Shown: in pieces, positions 2,197-57,622 of the stretch | Numbering within the stretch: the first letter of the stretch is position 1 | How the letters are laid out: every line of letters begins with the position of its first letter | Source: a virus | Strand: one strand, 5' to 3' | Virus record (IMG/VR): IMGVR_UViG_3300030406_002001 | Span: 1-64,000 of that record | DNA length: 64,000 nt | The notes under the pieces: model-generated | The model's input: only the letters and a program-made list of their open reading frames with translations | The model's database searches: none | Told to the model about the DNA's origin: nothing | Program-made: the position numbers and the translations under genes

Positions 2197-2205
2197 TTAT
2201 ATCTC

Positions 2206-2532: not shown

Positions 2533-2552
2533 AATATATCCTTTCTTTTATA

Positions 2553-3644: not shown

Positions 3645-3668
3645 TTTATATATCCTAACATAATTACA

Positions 3669-7916: not shown

Positions 7917-7924
7917 ATTTTAAA

Positions 7925-9517
7925 TTACTTTCCTTGAAGTCTTCTTAATATAAAATCAGTAACTTTTTCACCTTCTTTAATTTGAGTTTCATCTGGCAAC
8001 TTTATTTGTCCTCCCTCAAAACCTTGTACTGCTTCTTTTAAAACCTCATCTGAAGGCAAAATAAAAGGTTCTACAAATTTTTGTAAAAATACAGGACTTT
8101 CAGTATTAACAAATACATCTTCAAGTGTATAATTTTGACCTGTCTTTGGATTTATTGTAGCTAATTTATCTCTTGCAATTCTTTTTAAATCTTGTTCTGA
8201 TTGATATAACCTTACTTGTGCTGCATCTCCAACTGCATATGTACCTCCTTTTATTTGTTCTTCAACACTTGTAAAAAACCTTTTAAATGCAGTTTGAAAT
8301 GCTTTTTCTTCTTTTCCTGCAAATTGTTGTATAATTGCTTTTTGCTCTAAATAAAATGGTCTTCTAATTTCTCTATCTCTATATCTTTCTGATAAACTTT
8401 TTGGTTTTTCTTCTCCTTTTACTGTAAAAGGTGTATCTGTGTCTTTTACAATACTTGTTGTATCAATTAATATTTCTATTTCTCTTTGTTTATTAAAATC
8501 TGGTTCACCTTCAATATCTTGTAATCTTGCCCTTTTATTTTGTATTTCTGCATCTACTTGATTTTTTGCTTGTGTTCCTCTTACTCTATCTCTAATATCT
8601 TTTAATTCTGTTACTGAAATATCATCTAAATCTTTTGTATCTATTTCATTAAAAACTTTTTCATTAAATAATTCATCTGACCTTTGTTTAAATTGCACTT
8701 CTTGTAATAAATTATCATTTATTTCACTCTCTAGTCTTTCGTATTGTTTTCTATCAATTTTTTCTCCACCAATATTATTTTTTTTTAATCTATCCATACT
8801 TGCTTGATAGTCAATAGTACCATCTGCTCGTCTAACTAAAATTATAGAATTATAAAACTCGTTAATAACTTCTTGTCTATCAGCTTCATAAGCAGCTAAT
8901 GACTTTCCTGCACTTATTGCTGATTGATTGTCTTTATAAAATTTACTATTCTCTCCTGTTATACTTTCTAATAAACCAAATATAGCTTTATCTTCATAGT
9001 TTTGCTTACCTACTTTTATCTGCATATTTTTTATCTCTAATTCTTTTTGTACTGTTGCTCTGTTAACAGTTTCAGCTAATATTTGATTACCTCTTAATTT
9101 GTTTACTTCACTCATAAAAGATAATTTTGCTTTTTCTTTGTAATACAATCCTTTTTTTGCTGCCATAGGATCATTTTTGTAATAATTTCCAAAATCTTTA
9201 TCTAAAAAAACTCCGAAATCTGATATTATTTTATCTGTTTCTTGCTGTGAATATACTGTATTTTGTTCTTTTAATTTTTGTAATTGCTCTTCTGCTTGTC
9301 CTAAAAAATATACTTCACTATTAGTAACCTTATTATTAATTCTTTCAGTTTCTAATTTTGTTTCTTGCTCAATAATGTTACCTAAAAAATCACTAGCAAT
9401 TTTACCTGCTTGTGCGAACTGCCTACCTCTAAATTCTTGTCCTCTAAGCAAATTTGTTCCACGTGAAACATTTTGAGCTTGTATTTGTCCTCTAACAGGT
9501 CTAATTCTTATTGCCAT
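7925..9517 (-). CDS. Internal virion protein, T7 gp15-like position
   Basis: 530 aa, strongly helical and charged, with long Glu/Lys/Gln-rich stretches and no membrane segment. It lies between a gp14-like and a gp16-like gene, so it is most likely the middle internal-core/ejection protein. The stop codon overlaps the neighbouring gene's start region by one base, indicating tight coupling. Function is from order and composition; sequence alone is not diagnostic. Confidence 0.7.
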   Translation of the reverse strand: MAIRIRPVRGQIQAQNVSRGTNLLRGQEFRGRQFAQAGKIASDFLGNIIEQETKLETERINNKVTNSEVYFLGQAEEQLQKLKEQNTVYSQQETDKIISDFGVFLDKDFGNYYKNDPMAAKKGLYYKEKAKLSFMSEVNKLRGNQILAETVNRATVQKELEIKNMQIKVGKQNYEDKAIFGLLESITGENSKFYKDNQSAISAGKSLAAYEADRQEVINEFYNSIILVRRADGTIDYQASMDRLKKNNIGGEKIDRKQYERLESEINDNLLQEVQFKQRSDELFNEKVFNEIDTKDLDDISVTELKDIRDRVRGTQAKNQVDAEIQNKRARLQDIEGEPDFNKQREIEILIDTTSIVKDTDTPFTVKGEEKPKSLSERYRDREIRRPFYLEQKAIIQQFAGKEEKAFQTAFKRFFTSVEEQIKGGTYAVGDAAQVRLYQSEQDLKRIARDKLATINPKTGQNYTLEDVFVNTESPVFLQKFVEPFILPSDEVLKEAVQGFEGGQIKLPDETQIKEGEKVTDFILRRLQGK

Positions 9518-10071
9518 TATCTTATACCTCTAGCTCTTAAAAATGCATTTCCAGATAATTGAGTCATTGGGTCTAACTGTCCTAATGTAGTTGTTGGACT
9601 TGATAAAAAACTGCCAGAAAATTGTCCTGAATAATATGCTGCTGTACCTAATTGAGCTACACCTTGTATCAAACTTGTTCTACGTTTAAAAGATTCTGCT
9701 GCTAATGCTCCGGCTAATTCTATATCATTCTCTAATAAACTTTGTTCTAATTCTTTTTCTGCCCAAAATCTAGCATCATCTGCTTCTTCAATAGTATTCT
9801 GCATAACTAATAATGGTGAACCTGTAAATCTTTTACCACTTGCACCGATTGCTGCTCTTTTTTCTGACAACATAGTTTTTTCTTGTCTATTAATTTTTAT
9901 TTGTTGTTGCTTTCTTTGCAATTCAATTCTTTGATCTTCGTATGCTTTTGCTGTTCTTAAATTTTTTGCTTGTATTCGTGAATTTCTTATAGAAGCATAA
10001 GTGCCTAATATAGTTTGTAAACCACTTGCTACAGCAAAAAAAGTTCCAAAAGGTAATCCTATTCCAAACAT
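9517..10071 (-). CDS. Internal virion protein, T7 gp14-like
   Basis: 184 aa. An N-terminal hydrophobic helix (GTFFAVASGLQTILGTYASI) is followed by a long Gln/Arg/Lys-rich helix (about residues 30-75) and Ala-rich helices. This hydrophobic-helix-plus-coiled-coil layout, seen again at 44707-45228, is typical of the small ejection protein of T7-like phages, which inserts in the outer membrane. It sits directly downstream of the gp12-like gene, as expected. Confidence 0.75.
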   Translation of the reverse strand: MFGIGLPFGTFFAVASGLQTILGTYASIRNSRIQAKNLRTAKAYEDQRIELQRKQQQIKINRQEKTMLSEKRAAIGASGKRFTGSPLLVMQNTIEEADDARFWAEKELEQSLLENDIELAGALAAESFKRRTSLIQGVAQLGTAAYYSGQFSGSFLSSPTTTLGQLDPMTQLSGNAFLRARGIR

Positions 10072-10074
10072 AAT

Positions 10075-12567
10075 TTAATCCACAGTTAAAAGGGTTCCTG
10101 TTATTCCTAATATTGTCATAGGTAAAGGTTGAGTTTGTTTGACAGTAATCTGCCCATCTCTATCCCATCCTAAATTTGTTACTCGTTTATCTCCTGTAAA
10201 CTCTGGTATATTCTGACCCATAGGTGTTGCAGATGATCTAAATGGTAATTGATCATCATTTATTGTTGCACCCACTGTATTCAAAAATCTTACCATAACC
10301 TCATTATATCTTTTTTTCCTACCTTGTGAAGTACCTGCTTGACCTCCAAACTCTGGTTTTAATGTTTTTAATGTACTTGTAAATCCTAGTCCTACATCTA
10401 TTGTTTTCGTAGATAATTCTGTTGGTATATCTACAGTTATTGCACCATTTGTTACTGTTTGTGGTGGATATACTGCATCTCCTATAACTATTTGTACCTT
10501 TTCTCCTTCAAGATGATCTAATGATGTAACACTTGTAGAAGATGAGTTTACTGTGCCTGTTAGATAACTATCCATATTTGCAGTAGAACTTAAATATTCT
10601 ACATATTGTACTGTCGAACCATTTATTAGTCGTTCAATAATTACCCATACTTGATCTTCACCACCTTCTGGAATACTTGCTACACTTTTTGCTTTTGAAT
10701 GTGTTTCACTTGTAACTGCTAGTCTTGTAGAATCTGTTGTTTCAACTGTTAAAAGACCTGTAGCTTGTGGACTTGTTTCTGTAATTGTTACAATGTTTGC
10801 AGCAGGGTTTGCTACTGTAAAATCTGCATGAGCATTTATTGCTGTAAATATATTATCTGCTGTTGTATTGTTATTTATATTTGGTCTAAATCCTAAAGAA
10901 CTTGAAGGACTACTACTCCCTGCTGTTTCTGATGTAAATGTTACTTTTGATCCGTCTGATTTTGTTAACACAATACGACTACCTACAGGTATATTTGCAT
11001 AGTCTGTAACTGTAACTGTTGCTGATCCTGTTTTACCACCAAATATATGTCTATGCCATGCTACTACATTTTCTTCTCTTTGATATGTCATGCCTAAAAA
11101 CACACCATCTTCTCGTATTGCCCAATAAACAGAATCTGGTTCTTGTGCAAAATCTACTTCTGTAATACCATTACCTGTAATATGTTCTGATAATATAGTC
11201 ATATCTGGTGCAGAATATGCATCATCTTCAAACTTATAATAAAATTCTCTAATTTTTTTTTGTTGTCTTTGAATAAATAAAATAACATTACCAATCTGTA
11301 TTGGTCTTGCTGGATATACACCATAAGTTGTTTGTTGTGCAATATTTACATTATCTGGTTTTAGTGGTTCTCCTGTTGGTCTACCTACTTTATATTCTGA
11401 CCCTGCTGTACCAACAATCAAATCTTTAGATGGTGCTAACCATCTGATTGTATTTACCTTATTTGCTGCAATAGTATATATAAATGCATCTGCTGCATCT
11501 GCATCTCCTTCATCAAAATTATCATATAATCCAGATTGTGAAGCCCATATTGTTTGTGGAAAGTTTGTACTTCCACCATATAAAAGTCTTTGCTCAAAAA
11601 AACTAACAGCTCTTGGAAATCCTGTTGTATTTGAATATGCACCTAGTTGCCATTCTTTTGTTGCACTTCCTGTTCCTACTGCTGTAAATATTTCATAAGT
11701 TACAACTGTTGCACTTGTAAATCCTGTTATTTTTCCATGACCACCTTTTACTTTTACCAATCTACCAACATCTGTACTTGCAAATAAATCTGCACTAGCT
11801 GTTAATGTCCTGCCTGTGCCTACTGTTGTTGCACTCGTTGTCAAAGTTGTAGAAGTTGTATTTTCATCTAAATATGGACCTTTTTCAAAATCAACATCTG
11901 AAATACTCCAATTAGTATGACCTGTTCTAGTCAATTTTGTTGGTTCATGTGATGGATGCACTAAATACATAACATCTGCTGATTGAGCAAATTGTATTTC
12001 AGATAACTGAGATGATGTGTATTCTGTTGTTATTTCATATACTTTGGCTGCTGTACCACCAGAAGTATAAGTTGTATAATTAGTTGAATTTACTCCAGAT
12101 AACTCAAATGTGTTGGTTGTTACATTTGCTATTGTATATCTTCTTGCATTGACTTCTGTCATACCACCCACATCATTTAACCATATATGATCTCCATTAG
12201 AATATCCATGTGATGATACTGTAACAACAGCCGGATTTGCCTTTGTTATTGCTGTTACTGTTTTTGTTGCTTCTGTTATTTGACCATTATCTTTATAAAA
12301 TCTTATATATAAATTACCAAACTCTAATATATACGATTGTTCTATATTAAACTCAAAAGGTATCAATCTAGTTGCATTAGCTGAATTTTTTACCTCACAC
12401 ACAAACCTAGAACCATATCTTCTTGTCGTACCACCCTGTGGAAATACTATCATATTCTCCATAGTTTCAACTGCATTGTTGTATTTTTTAAAATCTACTT
12501 GACCAAATAATTTAGGTGAAATTTCACCGGATGTAAAATTTGTTTGAAATGGATGAACTCTTGCCAT
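10075..12567 (-). CDS. Tail tubular protein B (T7 gp12-like nozzle)
   Basis: 830 aa. The start (HPFQTNFTSGEISPKLFGQV, then ENMIVFPQGGTTRRYGSRFV) is the hallmark of gp12-like tail nozzle/stabilisation proteins. The rest is beta-propeller-like, with motifs such as RAVSFFEQRLLYGGS and FIYTIAANKVNTIRWL that recur in the module B copy (45228-47861). It forms the tail tube end through which DNA is ejected. It abuts the gp11-like gene with an ATG/stop overlap. Confidence 0.9.
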   Translation of the reverse strand: MARVHPFQTNFTSGEISPKLFGQVDFKKYNNAVETMENMIVFPQGGTTRRYGSRFVCEVKNSANATRLIPFEFNIEQSYILEFGNLYIRFYKDNGQITEATKTVTAITKANPAVVTVSSHGYSNGDHIWLNDVGGMTEVNARRYTIANVTTNTFELSGVNSTNYTTYTSGGTAAKVYEITTEYTSSQLSEIQFAQSADVMYLVHPSHEPTKLTRTGHTNWSISDVDFEKGPYLDENTTSTTLTTSATTVGTGRTLTASADLFASTDVGRLVKVKGGHGKITGFTSATVVTYEIFTAVGTGSATKEWQLGAYSNTTGFPRAVSFFEQRLLYGGSTNFPQTIWASQSGLYDNFDEGDADAADAFIYTIAANKVNTIRWLAPSKDLIVGTAGSEYKVGRPTGEPLKPDNVNIAQQTTYGVYPARPIQIGNVILFIQRQQKKIREFYYKFEDDAYSAPDMTILSEHITGNGITEVDFAQEPDSVYWAIREDGVFLGMTYQREENVVAWHRHIFGGKTGSATVTVTDYANIPVGSRIVLTKSDGSKVTFTSETAGSSSPSSSLGFRPNINNNTTADNIFTAINAHADFTVANPAANIVTITETSPQATGLLTVETTDSTRLAVTSETHSKAKSVASIPEGGEDQVWVIIERLINGSTVQYVEYLSSTANMDSYLTGTVNSSSTSVTSLDHLEGEKVQIVIGDAVYPPQTVTNGAITVDIPTELSTKTIDVGLGFTSTLKTLKPEFGGQAGTSQGRKKRYNEVMVRFLNTVGATINDDQLPFRSSATPMGQNIPEFTGDKRVTNLGWDRDGQITVKQTQPLPMTILGITGTLLTVD

Positions 12568-13148
12568 TAAGGTGCTCTAAAATCAGTAAACACAGTTGAT
12601 ATAATACTATCAGTTGTTCCCTCTGTGCTATCAAGACTTCTTGCTTCTGATAACTTTCTTTCAAATAACCTTTGCATTTGTGCTTGTAATGTTGTGCTAT
12701 TTGTTACAGGATATGCTAAATCTACTGCAAGTTTTGCAGTAAGTGTATCAACAAACATAGAATCAAATAAACTTGGATCAGTAACTCTTGCAATATAAGT
12801 TATTTTTGCTTCCCCTTCATCTGTAAGTAATACCCTGCCTTGACCTGCTAAATTTTCTATTTTAAATTCAAAATCTTCAAACTCCATTTTTAATACTCGT
12901 AAACAAAATGGATCAGTTGGCAATGCAAATTGATTAGCATATTCAAATGCAGGTGCTGTTGATAACTTTGCTAAATTTGCTCTGTTAATAGCAAAATTCC
13001 AAGTATGTGATCTTAATACTGCATCTCTTGATGGTGCATAAAATGCATTACATAATCTTGCTCTTTCACTATCTTCTGTTAATGATGCGATAGGACTATC
13101 GCCCAACCTTCGTAGAGCATTTGAACATATTGATACTTCTGTTGCCAT
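12567..13148 (-). CDS. Tail tubular protein A (T7 gp11-like adaptor)
   Basis: 193 aa. The N-terminus (ICSNALRRLGDSPIASLTED, then APSRDAVLRSHTWNFAINRA) is the typical gp11-like adaptor/gatekeeper signature; the module B copy at 47863-48480 has the same layout. It would bridge portal and nozzle. It is the first gene after the internal terminator at 13163-13190 and overlaps the gp12-like gene by one base. Confidence 0.9.
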   Translation of the reverse strand: MATEVSICSNALRRLGDSPIASLTEDSERARLCNAFYAPSRDAVLRSHTWNFAINRANLAKLSTAPAFEYANQFALPTDPFCLRVLKMEFEDFEFKIENLAGQGRVLLTDEGEAKITYIARVTDPSLFDSMFVDTLTAKLAVDLAYPVTNSTTLQAQMQRLFERKLSEARSLDSTEGTTDSIISTVFTDFRAP

Positions 13149-13162
13149 AATACTCCTAATGT

Positions 13163-13190
13163 AACAAAAAGGGGGTCTTTTGCAACCCCC
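13163..13190 (-). terminator. Rho-independent terminator after decoration gene
   Basis: On the minus strand a GGGGGT/ACCCCC stem with an 8-nt loop is followed by TTTTTG. It falls between the decoration protein (13209-13754) and the tail genes. A terminator of the same type occupies the same place in module B (48485-48509), so partial termination probably sets a high capsid-to-tail ratio. Confidence 0.85.
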
Positions 13191-13208
13191 AAATTGTAGT
13201 CTATTGTT

Positions 13209-13754
13209 CTAATCAGTTATATAAGTAACTACCATAGTAATATCACCTGCTGCTGCTGTTGCTGCAACATTAGACATTGTTAGGGCAATTCTTAATGGAA
13301 CTCCGGGGTCTTCTGATAGACCACCATCTTCCCATGCATGATTAGCTATTGCATTGACATTCTTTGCTTCAAATGCAACTTCAACACCTGCTGTGTTTGC
13401 TGCTTGTAAAGTTGTTATAGCTGTTGCATAACAATCTTCATCAATAACTGCATCTGCTGCTGTTTCAGTACCACCAATAGTAAACTTACTAGCTCCATTA
13501 TACAGACCTACATTGGCTGCTAGTGTTGGTGATCCATTTGAATCAAGATCATCATTGTAAAGTTTTATTGACATGACTTTTGCATTTGATGGGATTTGTG
13601 CCATCATGATTACATCATCATTATCAATATCACCTGTACCTGCTGCAATAGTATCAGCAAATACTCTCATCTTGCCATGAACACTTCCGACTTCGGAAAT
13701 AACTCTAGGAGATGCATCTAGGTTTGTAATTTCTACAGATTTAGCTGTTGCCAT
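13209..13754 (-). CDS. Putative head decoration/capsid-associated protein
   Basis: 181 aa, acidic, Ala/Thr/Val-rich, beta-type, without membrane segments. It lies ten bases after the capsid gene and just before a terminator, as does the much shorter 48515-48763 gene in module B. Position next to the capsid suggests a head decoration or minor head protein. I do not recognise the family with certainty. Confidence 0.6.
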   Translation of the reverse strand: MATAKSVEITNLDASPRVISEVGSVHGKMRVFADTIAAGTGDIDNDDVIMMAQIPSNAKVMSIKLYNDDLDSNGSPTLAANVGLYNGASKFTIGGTETAADAVIDEDCYATAITTLQAANTAGVEVAFEAKNVNAIANHAWEDGGLSEDPGVPLRIALTMSNVAATAAAGDITMVVTYITD

Positions 13755-13764
13755 GATTTACCTC

Positions 13765-14628
13765 CTATGACTCTTGACAAGCAATTTCTACAACTTTTTC
13801 GTCTTCTACTCTCGTAGCTCCGATTGTCATTGATAAAAATACTTGTGTTGCATAGTTCTTGTCAGCTCTTTCAGAGATTCTTGTTTCAATATCTCTGCCA
13901 AGTGCAAGACCTATTGCAGATTGACAAAAACCAAGTACAGACCTGTTACCATCACTATCTGTGCTTAGTCGTTCACTTCTAATAAAGTTAAATCCTAAAA
14001 AAGTATCTAACTCACCTTGTACTAATGCTTTAACAGAATTAAAATCTGCTGAAGTAATAGTTGTGCTACCTAGTAAATCACTAAGTTGTTTTGCTGACAC
14101 CACCATGAATCTTGACTCATCTGGGTCAACATCAGCAGCATCTAATACTTCTTTTGCACTAATTAATTTTGCTAGAGTTAATCCAGCAGAAGCATGAACA
14201 ATTTTCTGTCCGGAAGGTAATGCCACAGTTGTACCACCAGATACACCACCAAAAGCATTTCCACTAGCAGCAGCAATAATTGCATCATCCATTGCTCTAC
14301 CCATTGCCCAAGCACCACTCATTGCATACTCAGATTGTGGGGAGATTAACATTCTAACTTTGTCCTCTTGGTCAATCAGATCAGCCCAATCATAATCATC
14401 CATAGTAACTTTCCTTCTTGAGTGAGGGGTATCAACTCTAGGTGTATCACTATGTCTGGATGTTCTTTTAAGAGCAGCAGTATCACCAATTCTTTCAAAA
14501 AAGTGCGATTTACCTGTTACAGTTTCTGTTCTTACTGCATCTCTTAATCTTGAACCTTTCTGTTGTGCCAAATGGAACACATTGCTTTTATATTGTTCTA
14601 CAAAAGCTGTAGTAATTTGAACACTCAT
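13765..14628 (-). CDS. Major capsid protein (module A)
   Basis: 287 aa. It begins MSVQITTAFVEQYKSNVFHL, close in pattern to the module B capsid (SITTAFIKQFESEVHMAYQ), and both share a TLAKL or TLAKAL segment near the middle, an RFMVVSAKQLSDLL or RYFVVSSAGWADLL motif, and a C-terminal SAIGLALG or SAVGLAMG stretch. This pattern is that of small HK97-fold capsid proteins of marine podoviruses. It follows the scaffold gene after a 140-base leader with its own promoter candidate. Confidence 0.85.
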   Translation of the reverse strand: MSVQITTAFVEQYKSNVFHLAQQKGSRLRDAVRTETVTGKSHFFERIGDTAALKRTSRHSDTPRVDTPHSRRKVTMDDYDWADLIDQEDKVRMLISPQSEYAMSGAWAMGRAMDDAIIAAASGNAFGGVSGGTTVALPSGQKIVHASAGLTLAKLISAKEVLDAADVDPDESRFMVVSAKQLSDLLGSTTITSADFNSVKALVQGELDTFLGFNFIRSERLSTDSDGNRSVLGFCQSAIGLALGRDIETRISERADKNYATQVFLSMTIGATRVEDEKVVEIACQES

Positions 14629-14768
14629 TACAGTTCTCCTTAATAAAATTAATATAATAATTTATGCAGTTTTTGTCCTAAAAAAGGGAAACCTCGTTTA
14701 TAGTCGTTAGACTTTATATACTGTTATCCGTAAGGGCAGTACACACAAAAATATTATATCATACTTTT
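14629..14768 (-). promoter_or_regulatory. Capsid gene leader with extended -10 promoter candidate
   Basis: This 140-base gap separates scaffold and capsid. Read on the minus strand it has TGATATAAT (14753-14761), an extended -10 box, with no good -35. A TACTG/CAGTA hairpin lies downstream and a ribosome-binding AAGGAG just before the capsid start. A separate capsid promoter would suit the high demand for coat protein. Confidence 0.55.
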
Positions 14769-15599
14769 TTAAGTATTACCATATACTTTTTCATGTAGTT
14801 GTCGCATTTTTTCTACAGCAGGTTGATGATCCTTATGTCTAGGGTTGTGATAAGGATGATCTGGATTATTAAAAGTATCTTGTATTTCTTGTTTTGCATC
14901 TAATGGTGATGATGCTAAAGTGTTATTTTGTGTATTTTGTGCCATATCTTCAGTAATATCTTTACCTAATCTAGCAAATAAACGGATAACAGCAGGATGA
15001 TTCCCTGCTTCTGTATTCATTAAATCTTTTATTTCATTATCACCATACACATCAATAGCTCTTTTTGCATTACGAATTTGGCTATCATAGTCATAACCCC
15101 ATTCTTTTTTAAGCATAGCTTCGGTTTCTTGTTTTTGCACATCTACTTGTGATGCATACATATCTCCTTGATTCTTTATAGATTCCATTTGATAATTAAC
15201 AAGACCTTCTACCTGTTGTTGGTTTAAACCCATTTGATGAGCTACATTCTTAAACTGACTTATCTGATCTTGGGTAAAATATGCAGAATAATCTTCTGGC
15301 ACATTTACTTCATATTTATCAGCAGCTTCTGGTCTACCTAGTTTATTGTAGACTTCCATTCTTTCTTCATCAGTTTTAGGTATAGGAATACGATTACCTA
15401 ATACTTTTTGCTGATGTACTACTGTTTTAGCTAATGACTCTACATCTTTAAAATTAGATAATGTAGGATCATTTTTTAAATCTTCTGGTAAGTTTGATCT
15501 CCAATCTTGATTATCACTTACAGTAGACCCTAAAACTGTATTATCTTCTACAGGTTGTTCTACAGGGTTACCTTCTGTTGTGGTCGTTTCTTCAATCAT
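14769..15599 (-). CDS. Scaffolding protein (T7 gp9-like)
   Basis: 276 aa, acidic, Gln/Glu-rich, helical. The order portal, Bbp19-like, scaffold, capsid and features such as WRSNLPEDLKNDPTLSNFKD and LGRPEAADKYEV identify it as a capsid-assembly scaffold protein of T7-like phages. The C-terminus is basic/histidine-rich (NPDHPYHNPRHKDHQPAVEK), as expected for the coat-binding end. Counterpart: 50180-50965. Confidence 0.85.
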   Translation of the reverse strand: MIEETTTTEGNPVEQPVEDNTVLGSTVSDNQDWRSNLPEDLKNDPTLSNFKDVESLAKTVVHQQKVLGNRIPIPKTDEERMEVYNKLGRPEAADKYEVNVPEDYSAYFTQDQISQFKNVAHQMGLNQQQVEGLVNYQMESIKNQGDMYASQVDVQKQETEAMLKKEWGYDYDSQIRNAKRAIDVYGDNEIKDLMNTEAGNHPAVIRLFARLGKDITEDMAQNTQNNTLASSPLDAKQEIQDTFNNPDHPYHNPRHKDHQPAVEKMRQLHEKVYGNT

Positions 15600-15792
15600 T
15601 TTTTTGCTCCTTTAATAGATTGATTATTCGTATTATAACAGCTCGTTGACCTTCCTTATATGCTGTTTCATAAGGACAACTATCAAACGAACTTCTATGA
15701 TAATAAGCAGACTTTAAATCTGCTAATACTTCCTTCCCTTCTCCAGAGTCAAAAGTAATTCTGTACATTTTTTGTAATTCTTTTAGTTCCAT
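15592..15792 (-). CDS. Bbp19-like small head protein
   Basis: 66 aa. The pattern YRITFDSGEGKEVLADLKSA, then YKEGQRAVIIRIINLLKE, matches small Bbp19-like proteins found between portal and scaffold in many podoviruses. It overlaps the scaffold by 8 bases and the portal by one. Role unknown; a related 95-aa protein is at 50955-51242. Confidence 0.7.
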   Translation of the reverse strand: MELKELQKMYRITFDSGEGKEVLADLKSAYYHRSSFDSCPYETAYKEGQRAVIIRIINLLKEQKND

Positions 15793-17456
15793 TATTCAAC
15801 TAGACCAAGTGCTCTTGCCGATTCTTCTACTTGCTCTGCACCTTGTTGTGCTTCTTGTGTACCTAACTCTTTAATAGCTTGGTTTTGTGTTAATGCTGTT
15901 TGTGCTTGTTGTTGTTGCATAGCCATTTCTTGTGCTTGTTGCTGTTGTTGTGCTCTCATTTCTCTCATCTCTGCAACTTCTTCTATACCTCTTAATACAG
16001 TTTTAGGAACACCAAGTAAGTTTGCTCTAGTTCTAATTGCAAGATCATGATTTATATTATCCATAATAGTTGGATCAATCTGACCTACTTGCATAGCTAA
16101 TGCATATAATCTATCAATAGCAATAGATTCTTCCATTCTTTGTGATCGTGCCAAAGGACCTACATATTCTACATCTACTGTTTGACCTTGTATTATTTCT
16201 GGTGCAGGTATTAATGCTTCTGCTCTTAGCATAATACCAAATACTCTTTCAATTAATGGATTTAAAAACTCACTTTGAAATCTTCCTAATGTTGGTCCTA
16301 ATAATCTTTGCATCAATTCATATCTAACTTGTACCTCTGTTGCTGTCATTTGAGGACCTTGTTGTAATTGTAGTTGATCAGAATAATATGCTTGTCGTAT
16401 TGCTGTTCTTAATTGATTTTCTTTCATATCTGTAATCTGCCAATTAGTACCAATAGGTAATGACCTTACAGACCCTTCATTCCTAACAACAGTTATACCG
16501 GCAGGTGTTGTTCTAACTCTACCAATAACACCATCATCTGTTACAAGCAATGGTGGATCAATAGCTTTTGCCCATGCTTTCAATCCTATCTCTACTGCTT
16601 TGTTTAATGTTTTAATATCTGGCAATGCATTATAGCTAGGTGATCTTCCATATATTTCACCTGTTGCTTTTGACCACCTTGGTACAAGATATGGGAACTC
16701 ATTGTACCCACCTTCTCTAACTGACATTTTATCTTCTACACATACATGACAACTATAAAAAGGTAATTTTGTTTTTACTTTACCCATAGACCTTTCATAG
16801 TCTTCAGTTGGCTCAACTGCATGAATAAATGTAAATTCTTTATCTGGTTTGTCTTTTGCTGCTTCTATAATTTTTTCACCAACATTATCTTCACCAAACT
16901 CTTGTAGTGCTTGTCGTGCTGTTAAATTATATTTACGATATACTGTGTCTATTCTGCCATCATTATTTTCTTTTATATAAAACTCTTTGATATGTAATGT
17001 ATTAAAATGTATACCACCTTCAGCAAAACCTTTTTTACTTTCTTCTACAAATAATGCACCTGTACCTATAGAACATAAATCAAGATATAACTCATGTACT
17101 TCTGTGTTAAAATTAGATTCATTAAATAGATCATACATTCTTTTTGCTGAGTTTTCTAACCACAACTGTACATCTCTGTTTTGATTTAGTTCAGCACTTC
17201 TTAATTTCAGATGAAACCATTGTAATGATGGTGATGTTAGTGTTCCATGTAAACTTGCAGCTAATAAATTATTTGCAGTTATAGCAGTAGAATCAAATAA
17301 TACTTCTGTTCTTTTCTCACCTTTTTCTCTTTTAGATACAACTTCTGCTTTTCGTGGCATTACATAATCAAGAATATCTTGCCAATGCTCTTCCCAAGTT
17401 CCTCTATGACTTTCTAGTTGTGCAAGTCTTTTTTTTATGTAATCAAAATTTGCCAT
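15792..17456 (-). CDS. Portal protein (T7 gp8-like head-tail connector)
   Basis: 554 aa. The sequence has gp8-like signatures: HWQDILDYVMPRK near the start, DSTAITANNLLAASLHGTLT, then GEIYGRSPSYNALPDIKTLN and TATEVQVRYELMQRLLGPTLG. The C-terminal 50 residues are a Gln/Ala-rich helix. It forms the dodecameric DNA channel. The module B portal (51274-52890) shares the same motifs at moderate similarity. Confidence 0.93.
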   Translation of the reverse strand: MANFDYIKKRLAQLESHRGTWEEHWQDILDYVMPRKAEVVSKREKGEKRTEVLFDSTAITANNLLAASLHGTLTSPSLQWFHLKLRSAELNQNRDVQLWLENSAKRMYDLFNESNFNTEVHELYLDLCSIGTGALFVEESKKGFAEGGIHFNTLHIKEFYIKENNDGRIDTVYRKYNLTARQALQEFGEDNVGEKIIEAAKDKPDKEFTFIHAVEPTEDYERSMGKVKTKLPFYSCHVCVEDKMSVREGGYNEFPYLVPRWSKATGEIYGRSPSYNALPDIKTLNKAVEIGLKAWAKAIDPPLLVTDDGVIGRVRTTPAGITVVRNEGSVRSLPIGTNWQITDMKENQLRTAIRQAYYSDQLQLQQGPQMTATEVQVRYELMQRLLGPTLGRFQSEFLNPLIERVFGIMLRAEALIPAPEIIQGQTVDVEYVGPLARSQRMEESIAIDRLYALAMQVGQIDPTIMDNINHDLAIRTRANLLGVPKTVLRGIEEVAEMREMRAQQQQQAQEMAMQQQQAQTALTQNQAIKELGTQEAQQGAEQVEESARALGLVE

Positions 17457-31919: not shown

Positions 31920-32321
31920 ATGTTACCTATTGGTTCAATAGTAAGTGTAGCAGGAAAAATTATCGATCAGTTTGTTGAGGACAAAGACCTTAAAACAAAG
32001 ATCAATGGTGAGCTAAAAAAACAAATCAATGAGCTTGATAAAAAACAAGCTGAAATCAACTTAGAACAAGCTAAACACCCAAGTCTTTTTGTTGCAGGAG
32101 CTAGACCTTGCATCATGTGGATATGTGCATTAGGTATCTTCACTAACTTTTTCTTTATGCCTATTGCTGAATGGATAGCAATTATGGTTGATCCTACTAT
32201 AAAACTCCCAGACCTAAACACAGGGGAGCTTATGACTCTAACTTTATCTTTATTGGGACTTGGTGGACTTCGTAGCTATGAAAAGTCAAAAGGTATAGCT
32301 AGAGATAACATGAAAAAATAA
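31920..32321 (+). CDS. Holin of the GTA 3TM type
   Basis: 133 aa. After a charged coiled helix (about residues 20-50), GARPCIMWICALGIFTNFFF and further hydrophobic segments to about 85, then LMTLTLSLLGLGGLRSYEKS near 103-122, form the GTA_holin_3TM pattern. It would permeabilise the inner membrane for endolysin release. Its stop overlaps the endolysin start (TAATG). Confidence 0.8.
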   Translation: MLPIGSIVSVAGKIIDQFVEDKDLKTKINGELKKQINELDKKQAEINLEQAKHPSLFVAGARPCIMWICALGIFTNFFFMPIAEWIAIMVDPTIKLPDLNTGELMTLTLSLLGLGGLRSYEKSKGIARDNMKK

Positions 32322-32758
32322 TGTTTGACAATTTAGAAGATTTAAAAGACCGGATCAAAACCCATGAAGGGTACTGTGATACAGTTTATAAAGATACACT
32401 TGGTAAAAGAACCATAGGATATGGACACCTCTGCACAGATGATGAAGAATGGGAAGATGGCAAAGCATACAGTATGAGCTATCTTAACGATATATTCGAA
32501 ATAGATTTTAATGAAGCAGTAAACCAAGCAGAAAAATTAATTGGAGATACTATCATTAAAAACAAAGCAGCAGAAATTATAGTTGAAATGGTTTTCCAAT
32601 TAGGTATGGGTGGTGTAAGTAAATTTAAAAAAATGTGGGCAGCATTGCAAAATCAAGATTATGAGGAAGCATCTGTGCAAATGTTAGATTCTAAATGGGC
32701 AAAACAAACACCAAATAGAGCACAAGATTTAGCTGCTATAATGAAAAGTGTTAGTTAA
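32321..32758 (+). CDS. Endolysin, GH24 T4-type lysozyme
   Basis: 145 aa. HEGYCDTVYKDTLGKRTIGY has the catalytic triad spacing of T4 lysozyme: E16, D25, T31, followed by YGH. C-terminal NRAQDLAAIM and the VFQLGMGGVSKFKKM helix fit the family. It has no signal peptide and so depends on the holin. It ends convergently against 32751-33215, overlapping by 8 bases. Confidence 0.92.
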   Translation: MFDNLEDLKDRIKTHEGYCDTVYKDTLGKRTIGYGHLCTDDEEWEDGKAYSMSYLNDIFEIDFNEAVNQAEKLIGDTIIKNKAAEIIVEMVFQLGMGGVSKFKKMWAALQNQDYEEASVQMLDSKWAKQTPNRAQDLAAIMKSVS

Positions 32759-33215
32759 ATAAATAAGTAAATTCCCAAAATAAAAACCCAACTGCACTAC
32801 CAACTACTGCAATAATAATTAACATATCTCTTCTTCTTTTTTTTTCTTGTATTTGTCGTTTAATTGCATCTTTGTGTTCTTTTCTTTGTCTTGCTATTTC
32901 TTTTTGTAATGCTTCCCATTGTGTTAATCCATCTGGTGCATATAATAAAAATATTTCTCTTAATTGATTTCTCATTTTTTCTATTTCCATTTTTCTTAAA
33001 TGAGCTGCAATAGCATTTTGTTCTATACTACTAAACTTACCAAACATACTTTTACCTTTATTGCTAGAATGTGTATCTATATGTGATTCTGCTTCTGCCC
33101 ATTTCATAATAGGACTAGCTAATTCTGTTAAATCTTTACCTACTTTTACACCTTGTTGTATTAAAGATATTGCAGATTTAGTAGCTGCAAATGCTGTAAT
33201 TGGATCGATTAACAT
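32751..33215 (-). CDS. C-terminally membrane-anchored protein near fibres (154 aa)
   Basis: A helical, charged protein (QWEALQKEIARQRKEHKDAI) with one C-terminal membrane segment LIIIAVVGSAVGFLFWEFTY. Proteins of this build lie by the tail fibre/lysis genes of many marine podoviruses; an i-spanin or virion role is possible. It is the last gene of the minus-strand module, meeting the endolysin tail to tail. Confidence 0.6.
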   Translation of the reverse strand: MLIDPITAFAATKSAISLIQQGVKVGKDLTELASPIMKWAEAESHIDTHSSNKGKSMFGKFSSIEQNAIAAHLRKMEIEKMRNQLREIFLLYAPDGLTQWEALQKEIARQRKEHKDAIKRQIQEKKRRRDMLIIIAVVGSAVGFLFWEFTYLFN

Positions 33216-33221
33216 TACCCC

Positions 33222-33494
33222 TCACTTTTTCTTTTTATGCCTTGCTGCAAATTTTCTTGCTGCTTCCACACTTCCAAACCCCCATTTTTTAAGTGCTAAT
33301 GCTTTTCTTGTTGGTCTACCTTTCTTATCTTTCATAGGACCTTTCATCCCTGCAAACCGAGCAGCAAAACTAACTCGTCTTGGATTAGTTCCTTTTTTTA
33401 CAGGAGGTTTTAAATTAGCACCTTCTTTTCTTTTAAAGTATTTTCTACCTGCTGCTGTCAATCCTCCTGTTTTACTTTTATGTATTTTTTTCAT
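33222..33494 (-). CDS. DUF6321-like basic protein (90 aa)
   Basis: The pattern GGLTAAGRKYFKRKEGANLK, PPVKKGTNPRRVSFAARF, GPMKDKKGRPTRKALALKKW is a small conserved phage family (DUF6321-like). A second, clearly related copy lies at 57320-57622 next to terminase genes of module B. Unknown role; strongly basic. Confidence 0.75.
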   Translation of the reverse strand: MKKIHKSKTGGLTAAGRKYFKRKEGANLKPPVKKGTNPRRVSFAARFAGMKGPMKDKKGRPTRKALALKKWGFGSVEAARKFAARHKKKK

Positions 33495-33495
33495 A

Positions 33496-33696
33496 TTATA
33501 TATCTAATATTTTAAAAAACAATGTTATCAATACTCCCATAATAGACAAAGTTGATCCCATTATTAATATCTCAAGTCTTTTAACTCGATAATCTAGTTT
33601 ATCTAATAATGTTTGAACCATAGTCCTATACATAGCACACTCTTTTTCATGTGCTTTCATTTCTGATTTCAAACTGCTGTATGATTGTCTAGCCAT
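33496..33696 (-). CDS. Small tail-anchored membrane protein (66 aa)
   Basis: A charged coiled N-terminus (LKSEMKAHEKECAMYRTMVQ) with one C-terminal membrane segment LIMGSTLSIMGVLITLFFKI. The coiled-coil-plus-TM build resembles spanin or holin-like accessory proteins, but no signature proves it. Abuts the chaperone-like gene. Confidence 0.55.
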   Translation of the reverse strand: MARQSYSSLKSEMKAHEKECAMYRTMVQTLLDKLDYRVKRLEILIMGSTLSIMGVLITLFFKILDI

Positions 33697-33992
33697 TATT
33701 TAGGTTTCTCTGGCATAGTAACAGCTTTAGCTTTATCTACTGTGTCTACATCTTTAGTTATATCTCTTAACTTTTGTCTATATGTTTTCCAAGCATCTGA
33801 CATAGTTAAATCAGACATACCCATCCAATCACATTCAGCAAGAAGGTTAGTTCTTTCTTCACGAATACTAACCATAAGTCTGTCATACTCACCATCAGCC
33901 CATTCTTTATCTCTTGCTTCCAGTTCTTTAATTTCATCGGCAGTAAGTTTTACCTCAACACCATTGACCATTTTAGTTTTATAAATAGACAT
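33696..33992 (-). CDS. Phage tail assembly chaperone (Phage_tail_APC-like)
   Basis: 98 aa. REERTNLLAECDWMGMSDLT, then DAWKTYRQKLRDITK and a Pro-containing end, matches the Phage_tail_APC pattern (R..RN.LL.ecDW...D..l.....W..YRq.LRdi). Likely helps fold or attach fibres encoded just upstream of it in the operon. Confidence 0.75.
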   Translation of the reverse strand: MSIYKTKMVNGVEVKLTADEIKELEARDKEWADGEYDRLMVSIREERTNLLAECDWMGMSDLTMSDAWKTYRQKLRDITKDVDTVDKAKAVTMPEKPK

Positions 33993-34004
33993 ATTACCTC
34001 CTTT

Positions 34005-34640
34005 CTATTTTACAATTCCATAAACTGTTACTGTTCCAAATGATTCATATTTTGTTGTTGTATGATTTAGTGAACTACCACTTCCACCATTACCTATTCC
34101 TAACATAAATGAAATAGTATCGTAAGATGTATTTGCAGTAGCAAGGTTCATACCTATTTCATAATAATCTGTATTTGTAGTTCCATGTAATAATGAATTA
34201 AATATTACACACATTGGGTCTGTACTTACTTGTGGATTTAAAACATCACAATACCCAGAAACATACATATCCTCATTTGCTTGAAAATTTTGAGCAAGTG
34301 TTCCTATATCATATCCATCACCATATAATACAGCGTGTTGATTTGCATCTGCTTGTGTGTAATGTAATGTATGTTTAATAGTTGTTGAACCTGTTGTACC
34401 TACACTACCACTACTTCCAAATCTAAATAATAATGCACCATTTCCAGCATTAGATGTGCTAAGCTTTTCTCTTATATTATAATAAATTCTGTAATTTGTA
34501 TAAGTAGAAGTAAAAACATTTGCAAAAACAAATCCTTCTGTTGCTTCTGAACCACTTGCTATTGTTGTTGATGATATTTTTACTAAACCACCTGTACTTA
34601 CATCAGCGAGTGTTCTTGCATTTGCTCTAATTATTGCCAT
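34005..34640 (-). CDS. Adhesin-like protein (211 aa)
   Basis: MAIIRANARTLADVSTGGLV, then a beta-rich Thr/Asn/Ser protein with a FGTVTVYGIVK end that also terminates the gene at 34640-35701 (AVLYGVLK). That shared end points to a common C-terminal fold in both. Probably a tail-tip adhesin. Its start overlaps the next gene's stop by one base. Confidence 0.65.
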   Translation of the reverse strand: MAIIRANARTLADVSTGGLVKISSTTIASGSEATEGFVFANVFTSTYTNYRIYYNIREKLSTSNAGNGALLFRFGSSGSVGTTGSTTIKHTLHYTQADANQHAVLYGDGYDIGTLAQNFQANEDMYVSGYCDVLNPQVSTDPMCVIFNSLLHGTTNTDYYEIGMNLATANTSYDTISFMLGIGNGGSGSSLNHTTTKYESFGTVTVYGIVK

Positions 34641-35701
34641 TATTTTAAAACTCCATATAAAACAGCATTACCTGCACTCATATTAGAACTTGCATGATAA
34701 TATTTAATTGCATCTATTCCTGTTGTTGTTCCTAAACCTATTACACCATGTGCAACTACCACAGATGATGCATTATTCCATCCTGTTTGTAAATATTCAA
34801 TAGCAACTCGTGAACCATTACTAACATTTCTTGGGTCATGAATTATTATATTACCTCTATATCCATGTGATTCACCAAAACTACCTAAAAGTTTACCATA
34901 ACTACCATTTGATACACCATAAGTATTTACATTATTATTTGGTCTACCAGTAACTGCACACCAATAATATGCTGTATTATAATAACTGCTTTGATTAACA
35001 CCTTTTATTTCGCATCTTATTTCACCAGTACCTGTTGCATGAGAGTGTGATATAATAAGTGTTTGATACGTTGCACCATAAGCATATAATCCTGTAAATT
35101 CAATAAAGCTTTGATTAGTTGAATCTGTAACCTCTGCAAGTTTAACTAAACCACCTGCACTAGCAAATTCCATTTGTCCTACTGCTGTAGCACCACTACC
35201 TGTTATACTTTTTACTTTAAGAAACTTATCTGCTGTAGGTGAATTGTCTGGTAACTTTAATGTCCAACTTTGTCCTGCTGAGTGGTCTGGACTCTTTAAC
35301 TTTACTCCATGACTGTTTACCTCACAATTTAATTGTATTGCTCCCCCTTCACCACCTGCTCCTTTTGATATAAGTGTAGGTGCAGTAGCTAACTTATCAT
35401 TCGTTACAGTATTATCACTTGGTGTTCCTATATTAAGAACATCACCTAATACTATAATAAAATTTATTACATCACCTGTAACCAAATTACTTGCAAAAGT
35501 AATTGTATGATTTGAAATTGTAAAAGAACTGCCGGGATTTTGAATTATACCATTAAGACTAACAAGCATGTGATTTGCACTTGCAGGACTAAAATTTGCA
35601 GAGTCTTTTTGCATAGTATATGATGCTTGACCATTAACAACAGATATGGTGTCTAGCTTTATAAAGTTTCCTGTTATAGGTTGATTTCCAATATAGGGCA
35701 T
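34640..35701 (-). CDS. Tail fibre/adhesin, partner of the gene at 1-536
   Basis: 353 aa from ATG 35701, chosen because it starts MPYIGNQPITGNFIKLDTIS like its relatives; an earlier in-frame GTG has no support. The first 110 residues are nearly identical to the gene at 1-536, then differ. The C-terminal 170 residues are a beta-rich putative receptor-binding domain (GLYAYGATYQTLIISHSHAT). Confidence 0.75.
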   Translation of the reverse strand: MPYIGNQPITGNFIKLDTISVVNGQASYTMQKDSANFSPASANHMLVSLNGIIQNPGSSFTISNHTITFASNLVTGDVINFIIVLGDVLNIGTPSDNTVTNDKLATAPTLISKGAGGEGGAIQLNCEVNSHGVKLKSPDHSAGQSWTLKLPDNSPTADKFLKVKSITGSGATAVGQMEFASAGGLVKLAEVTDSTNQSFIEFTGLYAYGATYQTLIISHSHATGTGEIRCEIKGVNQSSYYNTAYYWCAVTGRPNNNVNTYGVSNGSYGKLLGSFGESHGYRGNIIIHDPRNVSNGSRVAIEYLQTGWNNASSVVVAHGVIGLGTTTGIDAIKYYHASSNMSAGNAVLYGVLK

Positions 35702-36204
35702 TAGTTTGCTACCTCCAACCAAATAACTGTACTAGGTGAACCTGAGTAATTATTATTATTACTTCTATTAATTCGTAATATTGTATTGTTGCCTCCAGTT
35801 GAAACTTTACCTTGACATTTAACTGGTATTGCTGAACCATCAGTATTTGTAATACTTGTAAATATTGTTGAAGGCATATATGCATTATTATTTAATGATG
35901 TACTATTGTAAAAAACATGAGTTGCTACTGGTGTAGTTGATGTTGTTGATAAAAAATCAGAACCATCTATTACCCATTTATAAAATAAATATGTATTAGT
36001 TCCACCATCAAAATTTGCAACACCAGATATAAGAACAATACTATTTGAACTTGATGGTGTAAAACTACCAAAATCTAAATCATCTGCATAGGAAGTTGCA
36101 CTTGCCCTTTCAGAGTTTTCTGTTATTTGTGTAATTTTATGACTCAATAGTTTTCCTCCAACACCTGTTGATAATGAACTTGCTAATATTTTACTTAATG
36201 GCAT
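35701..36204 (-). CDS. Small adhesin-cassette protein, copy of 536-1027
   Basis: 167 aa, very like 536-1027 over its whole length, with small insertions near the end (STGGNNTILRINRSNNNNYS). Overlaps the next gene in TAATG form. All-beta, no membrane segment; tail-tip role inferred. Confidence 0.7.
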   Translation of the reverse strand: MPLSKILASSLSTGVGGKLLSHKITQITENSERASATSYADDLDFGSFTPSSSNSIVLISGVANFDGGTNTYLFYKWVIDGSDFLSTTSTTPVATHVFYNSTSLNNNAYMPSTIFTSITNTDGSAIPVKCQGKVSTGGNNTILRINRSNNNNYSGSPSTVIWLEVAN

Positions 36205-36207
36205 AAT

Positions 36208-36483
36208 CTATTCCTTTGGGTATTTGTCCTTAACTGTTTTTATTGTTTTTTTCCAACCATCTATTCCATTATGATATATATCATCTAATTGGTCTGGTAT
36301 AGATGGATATTCTAATTCCCTTTTATATTGATACTCATTAGGGTCTTTCCAAGCATTAACCTTTGTCCAATCTATAGTAACTAATTTACCATCTTTGTCT
36401 TTTGCAACTATTGTTTTTTCTGTATTGCCATCAATAGAAATTACTGAATTGTGTATTGCTCGTATAGCTTTATGATAATCCAT
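36208..36483 (-). CDS. Tail-fibre assembly chaperone-like protein (91 aa)
   Basis: The end YPSIPDQLDDIYHNGIDGWK, then TVKDKYPKE, is the XkdW-like/tail-fibre assembly motif common beside phage adhesins. The N-terminus differs from its partner at 1031-1348. Its start overlaps the preceding adhesin stop. Confidence 0.7.
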   Translation of the reverse strand: MDYHKAIRAIHNSVISIDGNTEKTIVAKDKDGKLVTIDWTKVNAWKDPNEYQYKRELEYPSIPDQLDDIYHNGIDGWKKTIKTVKDKYPKE

Positions 36484-37319
36484 TATGCAGATACCTCTTG
36501 TGCTGTTAAAGAACTTGTGCCGCCGACTATTAGAGCATCATTTTGATTGCCATTAGGTCTATTAAGATTAAATGTTTCCCCACCTCGTACATATACTTGT
36601 AGTTTATATGTTATAGCATTTGTGGTTGAAGGTGTATCTAAAAGTTCAAATCCAGAAGTATATATTTTATATTGTCCATTAGCTGAATGGGGTGTATTAA
36701 ATCCAAAAGAAGCTTTTACTTGACTACTCAAAGATACTGCTGTTGATTGCCCTATATGTGTTGAATCTCTCAGAACGTTTATTCCACCATACATATTAGC
36801 CGTTCCACCATGTTGCATTACAACACGAATAAGTATTTTATTACTACTAGATGCTGGTGTAATAGAAAGTGTCATTCCAGTAATATCAACAAATGAACCA
36901 CTTGTAGTAGAAAAAGTATCAGTTTTAAATGCTTGTACTACTTGTAATATTTTACCTCCACCAGCTTCTGCAAAACTATTATCACCTCTTAAAAATGTTG
37001 TACTGTTTTTTGTACCTGTTGCTGACAACTGTGCTATTCCAACACTACCACTTGCAGGATTAATTGTACCTACGGCTCTTCCTATATATACACAGTACAT
37101 ATCATCTGTACCTGCTGTCGCCTCTGTGAGCGTCAAACTTGTACCAGAAGCCGAATATGCTGTGGTAGGTTCTTGTCTTACATTATTAATAAATAAAGCA
37201 ATATCATTAGCATTAGTTACAGATTGAGATAACGTATAACTTGTTGTAGCACTTACAGAAAAATCTTGTTTAACAAGTGATTGTGATGATGTTGTAGGTG
37301 CAGAACCAAGATAAGGCAT
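36483..37319 (-). CDS. Tail fibre/adhesin, partner of 1351-2196
   Basis: 278 aa. Residues 1 to about 118 match 1351-2196 almost exactly (KQDFSVSATTSYTLSQSVTN, DDMYCVYIGRAVG), while the C-terminal domain is different (AFKTDTFSTTSGSFVDITGM, a beta-sandwich-type domain). A conserved base with exchangeable tip. Confidence 0.75.
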   Translation of the reverse strand: MPYLGSAPTTSSQSLVKQDFSVSATTSYTLSQSVTNANDIALFINNVRQEPTTAYSASGTSLTLTEATAGTDDMYCVYIGRAVGTINPASGSVGIAQLSATGTKNSTTFLRGDNSFAEAGGGKILQVVQAFKTDTFSTTSGSFVDITGMTLSITPASSSNKILIRVVMQHGGTANMYGGINVLRDSTHIGQSTAVSLSSQVKASFGFNTPHSANGQYKIYTSGFELLDTPSTTNAITYKLQVYVRGGETFNLNRPNGNQNDALIVGGTSSLTAQEVSA

Positions 37320-37663
37320 TAGGTTATCTCCATAATTGACAATGCAACATCTAATGCCGTTGCGGCACTTGCTTGTGCTTTAATAACATCAGTAGTTTGC
37401 ACGACAACTTTTTGTCCTCCAAACACCTCAAGTGTAGTATTAGCAGGGATATCTACTCCTTTTAGTAAAAAAACATCTGCATTTGTTTCTGTATCATTTG
37501 TATTACTTACTAATTGTACATCTGCAGTTATTGCACTTGACGTTTTATTACTTAATGCCATACCTAAAACAACAGTACTTGTGTTTGAAGGCACAGTATA
37601 TATTGTATCTAACGAACTATTACTTACACTTGCTTTTGTTTTTACTTTAAATGTATTTGCCAT
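37319..37663 (-). CDS. Small beta-rich tail protein (114 aa)
   Basis: Partner of 2206-2532: SNSSLDTIYTVPSNTSTVVL, then GVDIPANTTLEVFGGQKVVV, and a short hydrophobic C-terminus. Soluble beta protein, probably a tail-tip adaptor. Overlaps the adhesin start by one base. Confidence 0.6.
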   Translation of the reverse strand: MANTFKVKTKASVSNSSLDTIYTVPSNTSTVVLGMALSNKTSSAITADVQLVSNTNDTETNADVFLLKGVDIPANTTLEVFGGQKVVVQTTDVIKAQASAATALDVALSIMEIT

Positions 37664-37676
37664 AATGTTTCCTATA

Positions 37677-38510
37677 CTATCCTAAAGCAATAGCTAATGC
37701 AACAGGGTCGGGTGCAGTATTAGTAATTGTTACTGTATCTGTTGCACTTACTGCTACTTGCATATTTGTTCCTGCAGTAAATGTTAATGTATTTCCATCT
37801 GTTATAGTTTGTGTGTTTGACCCATCAGAAATAGTAAAAGTATCAAAACTACCACTACCTGCCGGACCTGTTGCTCCTGTTGCACCTTGTGGTATACCAA
37901 GTGATAAAACACCTGTTGCTGAATTATATGATGCTGTAGCTGAAGCACCTGCAGATAATGTACTAACTGTAACACCACCTCCTAATGGTTGTGAACTTAC
38001 AGCAACATTGCCGTCTGTATCAAACGATAATATTTTATTTGCTCTAGTTGCTTTTACAGGTAAAAAAGTTGAAACAGCAACAGTATCATAATCATATAAT
38101 TTTATACTTCTACTACTTTGTTGGTCTACATCTGCAATCATAGATGCAAATTTATCTTGTTGTGTGTTAAGCGCAGTAACATCAAATGTTCCATTTACAG
38201 GAAAATCACTTGTTCTTTCAATTGGTGTTTCTCTAATTATTACAACTATATCACCTGCTGTAAGTCCTGCACCAAATGAAACTGTACCACCGTCACCAAA
38301 CTCATAAGCACTATCTGTTGTACTTGATGTGCCTGTTACTTTGTATGTAGTATTTGTAGAAGCACTACTATTAAATGTCATTAGTGCTGTATTTTTATAT
38401 ACTTTTAAATCTGTAATATTAAAAAATTCAAAAGGTACAGTAAACGCAGTTTGATTACTTGAAGCTGTATAGCTTACTCGAGGTGTATTATTTGCACTAA
38501 GTATTGTCAT
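37677..38510 (-). CDS. T7 gp17-like tail fibre with collagen-like motif
   Basis: 277 aa. The N-terminal domain (RVSYTASSNQTAFTVPFEFF, VIIRETPIERTSDFPVNGTF, LNTQQDKFASMIADV) is of the T7 gp17 attachment type. After residue 200 comes a short collagen-like GATGATGPAG and a beta-rich end. It differs from the module A fibre (2553-3644) apart from fold. Follows the gp16-like gene. Confidence 0.85.
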   Translation of the reverse strand: MTILSANNTPRVSYTASSNQTAFTVPFEFFNITDLKVYKNTALMTFNSSASTNTTYKVTGTSSTTDSAYEFGDGGTVSFGAGLTAGDIVVIIRETPIERTSDFPVNGTFDVTALNTQQDKFASMIADVDQQSSRSIKLYDYDTVAVSTFLPVKATRANKILSFDTDGNVAVSSQPLGGGVTVSTLSAGASATASYNSATGVLSLGIPQGATGATGPAGSGSFDTFTISDGSNTQTITDGNTLTFTAGTNMQVAVSATDTVTITNTAPDPVALAIALG

Positions 38511-57319: not shown

Positions 57320-57622
57320 TTACTTTCCTTTCTTTTTTTTATTTTTTAATCGTATGGACATACGCTTTGCTTTGGCTCTTGCATCTGCCTTGCTCGACGC
57401 ACCCCATGCACGTAATGATAACAAAAGTCGTGTTGGTTTTCCATCTTTATATTCTGGACCGGGCATATTACCCATTCTTGCTAGAAAAGATGCACGTCTT
57501 GGATTATCTCCACGTTTGACAGGAGGACGTAATGTACCTCCTTTATAAGATGCACGACCTTTGGCATTTAATCCTCCCTTAGGATTCTTACCTGCCTTTC
57601 TTTGCCATGCGGGTGTTTTCAT
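57320..57622 (-). CDS. DUF6321-like basic protein (100 aa)
   Basis: GGLNAKGRASYKGGTLRPPV, NPRRASFLARMGNMPGPEYK and GKPTRLLLSLRAWGASSKAD match the family at 33222-33494. Arg codons are CGT here but mostly AGA in the other copy, so they are diverged copies and not a recent duplication. Role unknown. Confidence 0.75.
   Translation of the reverse strand: MKTPAWQRKAGKNPKGGLNAKGRASYKGGTLRPPVKRGDNPRRASFLARMGNMPGPEYKDGKPTRLLLSLRAWGASSKADARAKAKRMSIRLKNKKKKGK

Follow-up and report, generated by a model that had tools for sequence, protein, structure and literature searches.

Two podovirus gene sets in one metagenomic virus record, most likely joined during assembly at a shared adhesin cassette

The IMG/VR record IMGVR_UViG_3300030406_002001 is a linear sequence of 67,849 bp; the stretch of 64,000 nucleotides analysed here, referred to as the window, covers its positions 1–64,000. 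Portals, major head proteins, tail tube proteins, and terminases are each encoded twice in the record, which therefore holds two full podovirus gene sets, here called units A and B. A cassette of host-recognition genes spans ~33.63–37.32 kb in the middle of the record, and related genes lie at its left end. The features discussed below are as follows (record coordinates).

1–35,141: unit A, 35,141 bp, related to the isolate Baldr.
34,621–67,761: unit B, 33,141 bp, related to the isolate Hodr.
34,621–35,141: block S, the tip half of the 360-aa adhesin, taken to be common to the A and B loops and the place of the switch.
1–535, minus strand: A's long-anchor adhesin, corresponding to 34640–35722, cut at the GGLVK hinge by the contig start.
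536–1027, minus strand: A's 163-aa cassette protein, 80% amino acid identity to 35701–36204.
1031–1348, minus strand: A's 105-aa XkdW-family protein (PF09636, E 1.9e-11, above the cut-off).
1351–2196, minus strand: A's 281-aa adhesin; 117-aa anchor shared with 36483–37319 at 90.6%, C1q-like tip.
2206–2532, minus strand: 108-aa gene of the A backbone, outside the exchanged part; 100% in G001, 87% in G003, 34–36% in B records.
32307–34006: A-side genes for lysozyme and for proteins of 154 aa, 90 aa (DUF6321-like), 66 aa, and 98 aa; 97% to G001, unbroken.
33696–33992, minus strand: 98-aa Phage_tail_APC protein, whose gene is the first one in the exchanged cassette on the A side.
34005–34640, minus strand: 211-aa short-anchor adhesin (MAIIRAN...GGLVK), last gene before the switch from A to B.
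34640–35722, minus strand: 360-aa long-anchor adhesin, hinge GGLVK at residues 190–194.
35701–36204, minus strand: B's 167-aa cassette protein.
36208–36483, minus strand: B's 91-aa protein, diverged counterpart of the 105-aa XkdW-family protein (C-terminal 37 aa at 41%).
36483–37319, minus strand: B's 278-aa adhesin, whose start codon marks the end of the shared block.
37319–37663, minus strand: 114-aa gene of the B backbone, outside the exchanged part; 89–96% in G005, G006, and G013, 35–36% in A records.

The cassette combines adhesin or tail fibre genes with chaperone-like genes (tail fibre families, XkdW, Phage_tail_APC, C1q). Tail fibre families are matched by the 360-aa and 278-aa adhesins; the 211-aa and 167-aa proteins matched none of these families and count as adhesins from their position and architecture. 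The C1q match of the 281-aa adhesin tip reached 24.1 bits (cut-off 23.7). From its family membership, the 105-aa protein probably serves as a fibre assembly chaperone; B's 91-aa protein gave no Pfam match of its own. The 98-aa protein is 95% identical in amino acids to B's copy at 66891–67187, outside the window, and the 211-aa adhesin would belong to A. As the 108-aa and 114-aa genes each follow their own backbone, the edge of sharing on the structural side is the start codon of the 278-aa and 281-aa adhesins. Beside the cassette, the 66-aa protein at 33496–33696 has a likely single membrane span and 48% identity to B's 64-aa protein at 66697–66891; by appearance it is possibly holin-like. 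Small basic proteins of one family, phrog_4689, labelled DUF6321 in the earlier note, are encoded in both units (33222–33494 and 57320–57622); in the A-like contigs L005, L025, and L029 the relative is found next to the large terminase gene instead.

The genes at 1–2532 and 34640–37663 had been described in the earlier note as a near-identical cassette repeated at about 35.1–35.2 kb. Their matching order was confirmed, and self-comparison recovered the long repeat blocks where they had been placed: 61–1059 against 35226–36236 (87.5% nucleotide identity over 1013 columns, spacing 35,165) and 1846–2197 against 36969–37320 (84.9% over 352 columns, spacing 35,123), both with E < 1e-100. The cassettes are alike, but "near-identical" is too strong, identity being 85–87% in the two blocks and 97–98% only in short stretches of the sliding comparison (~235–435); the observation is real and was overstated. 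Between ~1,120–1,850 and 36,300–36,930 no real identity was found (42–53%, sliding comparison); this part contains the adhesin tip and the greater part of the chaperone-like gene, which are dissimilar. A third partial copy comprises 66823–67236 against 33628–34038 (85.1%), outside the window, and 67707–67849 against 34566–34708 (92.3%), where the match is exact over the final 88 bases, up to the end of the contig; it does not appear in the earlier note because it lies outside the window or the span treated there.

Strong divergence of the adjoining structural genes, also claimed earlier, was borne out: where they align by blastp (a B partner was found for 5 of 12 A structural queries), the structural proteins of A and B are 23–31% identical in amino acids. 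The nearest named relatives are the Pelagibacter phages EXVC032P Baldr for A and EXVC031P Hodr for B, each a single circular genome. The A portal is 80% identical to that of Baldr (next best 45%), the B portal 78% to that of Hodr (next best 39%). The GenBank locus tags of these isolates are swapped, the Baldr record having EXVC031PHodr tags and the Hodr record EXVC032PBaldr tags (L321/L322, OQ414636/OQ414635). Each unit is complete by itself in independent records, A in G001 and G002 and B in G005 and G006, with terminal repeats of 77–123 bp in these four; the G001 genome is 34,605 bp long, and its terminal repeat 98 bp. A portal-family search of 15 records gave a match in 12, and two portals only in IMGVR_UViG_3300030406_002001. 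By backbone marker, 97 contigs with cassette genes were divided into A (11), B (25), neither (61), and both (0), several of these labels resting on a single weak marker. Two co-occurring pelagiphages are the best explanation of A and B; the isolates Baldr and Hodr point to SAR11 as the probable host. The B-like records G007 (54.8 kb; L323–L325) and G013 (42.2 kb; L326–L328) were considered as further two-genome records and rejected, having one portal apiece. They contain self-repeats of 1.1–1.7 kb at 74–75% identity, possibly partial joins of a like kind.

The contig traverses block S in full once, and its last 88 bases are the first 88 bases of S, re-entered exactly at 34,621; the record length closes accordingly (35,141 + 33,141 - 521 + 88 = 67,849). 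The B-type contig L180 matches the record exactly over 369 bases that start at 34,621 too, and carries both B flanks (66216–67277 at 95.6%, 36187–37840 at 98.4%). When position 35,141 is joined to position 1, the reading frame continues through 347 codons with the sole stop terminal, four neighbouring offsets giving 13–22 stops, and the join completes the GGLVK hinge. Both contig ends thus abut one shared segment, S, in which the switch lies as well. Two points count against a join made at S by assembly: the 12 bases that open the record differ slightly from the sequence next to S in L180, and the record lacks a copy of S belonging to A. A rule based on k-mer length that would yield exactly 88 bases was considered and dropped: the assembly had run through another exact repeat of the contig, 89 bp long, and for this reason no k value is claimed.

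The earlier note had proposed, largely rightly, a switch inside the cassette and A as the owner of the small genes at 32.75–34.0 kb. The switch is placed at S, 34,621–35,141; G001 carries 32307–34006 unbroken at 97%, then a cassette, then 1907–3661 at 97%, so that the small genes, including the DUF6321-like one, are A's, and from 36187 onward the sequence is B's by the 98.4% match to L180. The codon-usage profile suggested in support held in part: log-likelihoods favour A for three of the four small genes (+6.6, +4.6, +3.8) and not for the 98-aa gene (-1.8). Codon usage is weak alone, two A training genes being B-like by >4 units and 31920–32321, in A, scoring -8.4. It was rejected as proof of module membership because the training genes misassign too often, and A's ownership of the small genes rests for the same reason on synteny with G001.

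Very probably, then, the record consists of two phage genomes that an assembler joined at S, within a cassette exchangeable between phages. A and B would carry versions of one host-recognition cassette and share S exactly or nearly so, A having the same sequence there, and the assembly graph would form two loops meeting at S. The assembler would leave the end of S on loop A, round A, cross S into loop B, round B, and halt 88 bases into S again. This reading is favoured because the units occur singly elsewhere, the contig ends abut S, and the frame closes from 35,141 to 1. The earlier note had left the switch to recombination or an assembler; its location stands, and software rather than phage recombination is here considered to have made the join.

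A single recombination at S between real genomes in a co-infected cell would give the identical sequence if a joint concatemer or a two-genome phage had been sequenced; the cassettes, with exact stretches up to 89 bp, are plausible for homologous recombination, and Baldr and Hodr are both recorded from host HTCC1062. We nevertheless regard such a natural cointegrate as unlikely: both backbones were found together in 0 of the 97 cassette contigs and two portals in 1 of the 15 records, namely the present one, and every relative is a single genome of ~33–37 kb. A 68-kb genome would not be expected to fit a capsid built for ~33–37 kb. A single phage whose genome had truly duplicated its adhesin cassette would also place two cassettes in one contig, but is scarcely credible, as the main structural genes are present twice as well, in unrelated versions, and each structural set occurs singly in other genomes (contradicted by G001, G005, and G006). 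The repeat looks like no true duplication, yet adhesin genes do appear to be shared by viruses that are only distantly related. That the cassettes owe their likeness to old common descent or strong conservation, with no exchange between lineages, is very improbable. In its favour, many contigs have conserved anchors, and of the four gene trees, which rest on small sets, two need only two changes between A and B; against this stand the contrast of 80–95% in conserved cassette proteins with 23–31% in structural proteins, the four and five changes needed in the trees of the 98-aa protein and the 360-aa anchor with five A rows each, and G001, which lies within A and has a different cassette despite flanks 97–98% identical. 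The reading of an assembly join at an exchangeable cassette is kept in what follows.

Exchange of the cassette between lineages is seen in the proteins and in the trees. Conserved cassette proteins of A and B are 80–95% identical in amino acids, and the four cassette-gene trees call for 4, 5, 2, and 2 switches between A and B, a single one being enough without exchange; the tree sets are small (A + B rows: 5 + 14, 5 + 15, 3 + 12, 3 + 4), with rows below 55% identity or 85% coverage left out, contigs with a single weak marker labelled "other", and L180 assigned to B by hand from nucleotide matches. The cassette is present on further backbones as well: in G018 the 167-aa cassette protein is 98% identical, and no other backbone protein of A or B matched well there. 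Among isolates, a search of 50,697 phage records with DNA of the middle cassette gave 15 matches, of which 11 are named as Pelagibacter phages. On sequence comparison, the cassette is a real, exchangeable set of putative adhesins with chaperone-like genes, held by phages with 23–31% structural identity. In G001 (L167), 12061–15983 has the 167-aa-type gene directly beside the 98-aa gene, a cassette order unlike that of the window, and adhesin genes are therefore shuffled in order as well as in tips. Elsewhere in A, the internal virion protein block at 3662–10053 has no nucleotide match to G001, both flanks being 97–98% identical, and its proteins are 27–49% identical in G001, G002, and G003; this block appears to be another module that was replaced, one for DNA entry. 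No contig matched the patterns used to search for relatives of A's internal virion protein (3669–7916).

Several known systems resemble this one. In the available part of PMC10579305, Alteromonas phages A5, V22, and P24 of one host genus share tail fibre and cognate chaperone genes across unrelated backbones, which is the point of likeness; the proteins of that module are 35–67% similar and the chaperone has DUF4376, whereas the present cassette reaches 80–95% in its conserved parts and has several adhesins with XkdW and Phage_tail_APC proteins. Metaviromic islands of marine phages, including HTVC010P-related pelagiphages, are variable and contain tail fibre, C1q-domain, and XkdW genes, as does the cassette; as far as the available part of that article goes, they are under-recruiting regions within lineages, in contrast to one cassette kept at 85–87% in two deeply diverged lineages (PMC3909814). 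Among isolates, Pelagibacter phages HTVC019P and HTVC035P match the middle cassette at 70% in DNA over 18–21% of its length, and their tail fibre and small genes follow one another in a similar order and at similar sizes; their backbones are other ones, and the cassette aligns only in part. Baldr and Hodr carry other adhesins, no cassette protein being present at 50% or more in either. Repeats are stated to give chimeric contigs in viral metagenome assembly (PMC10563150), and chimeric assembly has been measured (PMC4247695), similar genomes being a further source of such contigs; in the available parts of both, the published chimeras are general statements and simulations, whereas here the joint can be read from a single record.

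The sequence GGLVK or GGLIK is present in the 360-aa, 211-aa, and B's 192-aa adhesins, following a long anchor of ~190 residues or a short anchor of ~17 residues. Alignments of 58 distinct relatives of the 360-aa adhesin end at residues 190–229 in 31 and reach 350–360 in 13. Among 15 short-anchor and 7 long-anchor complete ORFs with the hinge, tips are at least 40% identical in 12 of 105 cross-anchor pairs (a count without the unrelated 137-aa protein, L058) and 82–98% identical in four. In these four, DNA identity is 23–40% over the 30 bases before the hinge and 90–100% over the 30 bases from the hinge, the background of 2,000 random pairs having a mean of 28% and a highest value of 57%; later DNA blocks are mostly at 90% or above in three of the pairs and at 53–93% in the fourth. 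Given this step in identity, the tips sit on unrelated anchors, and the hinge codons are the joint. Tips may have moved by homologous recombination at the hinge or otherwise; between genes and lineages they would move presumably by homologous recombination in co-infected SAR11 cells. We consider it a tentative proposal, with somewhat less than an even chance of being right, that SAR11 podovirus lineages, several of them deeply diverged, share a pool of tip domains mounted interchangeably at the conserved GGLVK, DNA homology at the hinge acting as a universal joint that reshapes host recognition within the cassette and between lineages. The GGLVK hinge was not found in print, a literature search for the motif yielding none about phages among the titles listed; nor was anything specific on exchange of this module between pelagiphage groups found in literature searched at title level and in the available part of PMC9599517.

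Most probably the finding amounts to assemblies joined at a module that both phages carry, and it is ordinary in kind because module sharing, variable islands, and repeat-driven chimeric contigs have already been published. Before this two-genome record enters taxonomy or size statistics, or is tallied as a phage of 68 kb, its two parts should be separated, and the case shows how a shared host-recognition module can join the assemblies of unrelated phages. To our knowledge, the receptors of SAR11 phages are largely unknown; base-level joints for adhesin exchange among likely SAR11 phages are now given. Module sharing is known, and it is the hinge-centred exchange, new as far as we found, that is the part worth following.
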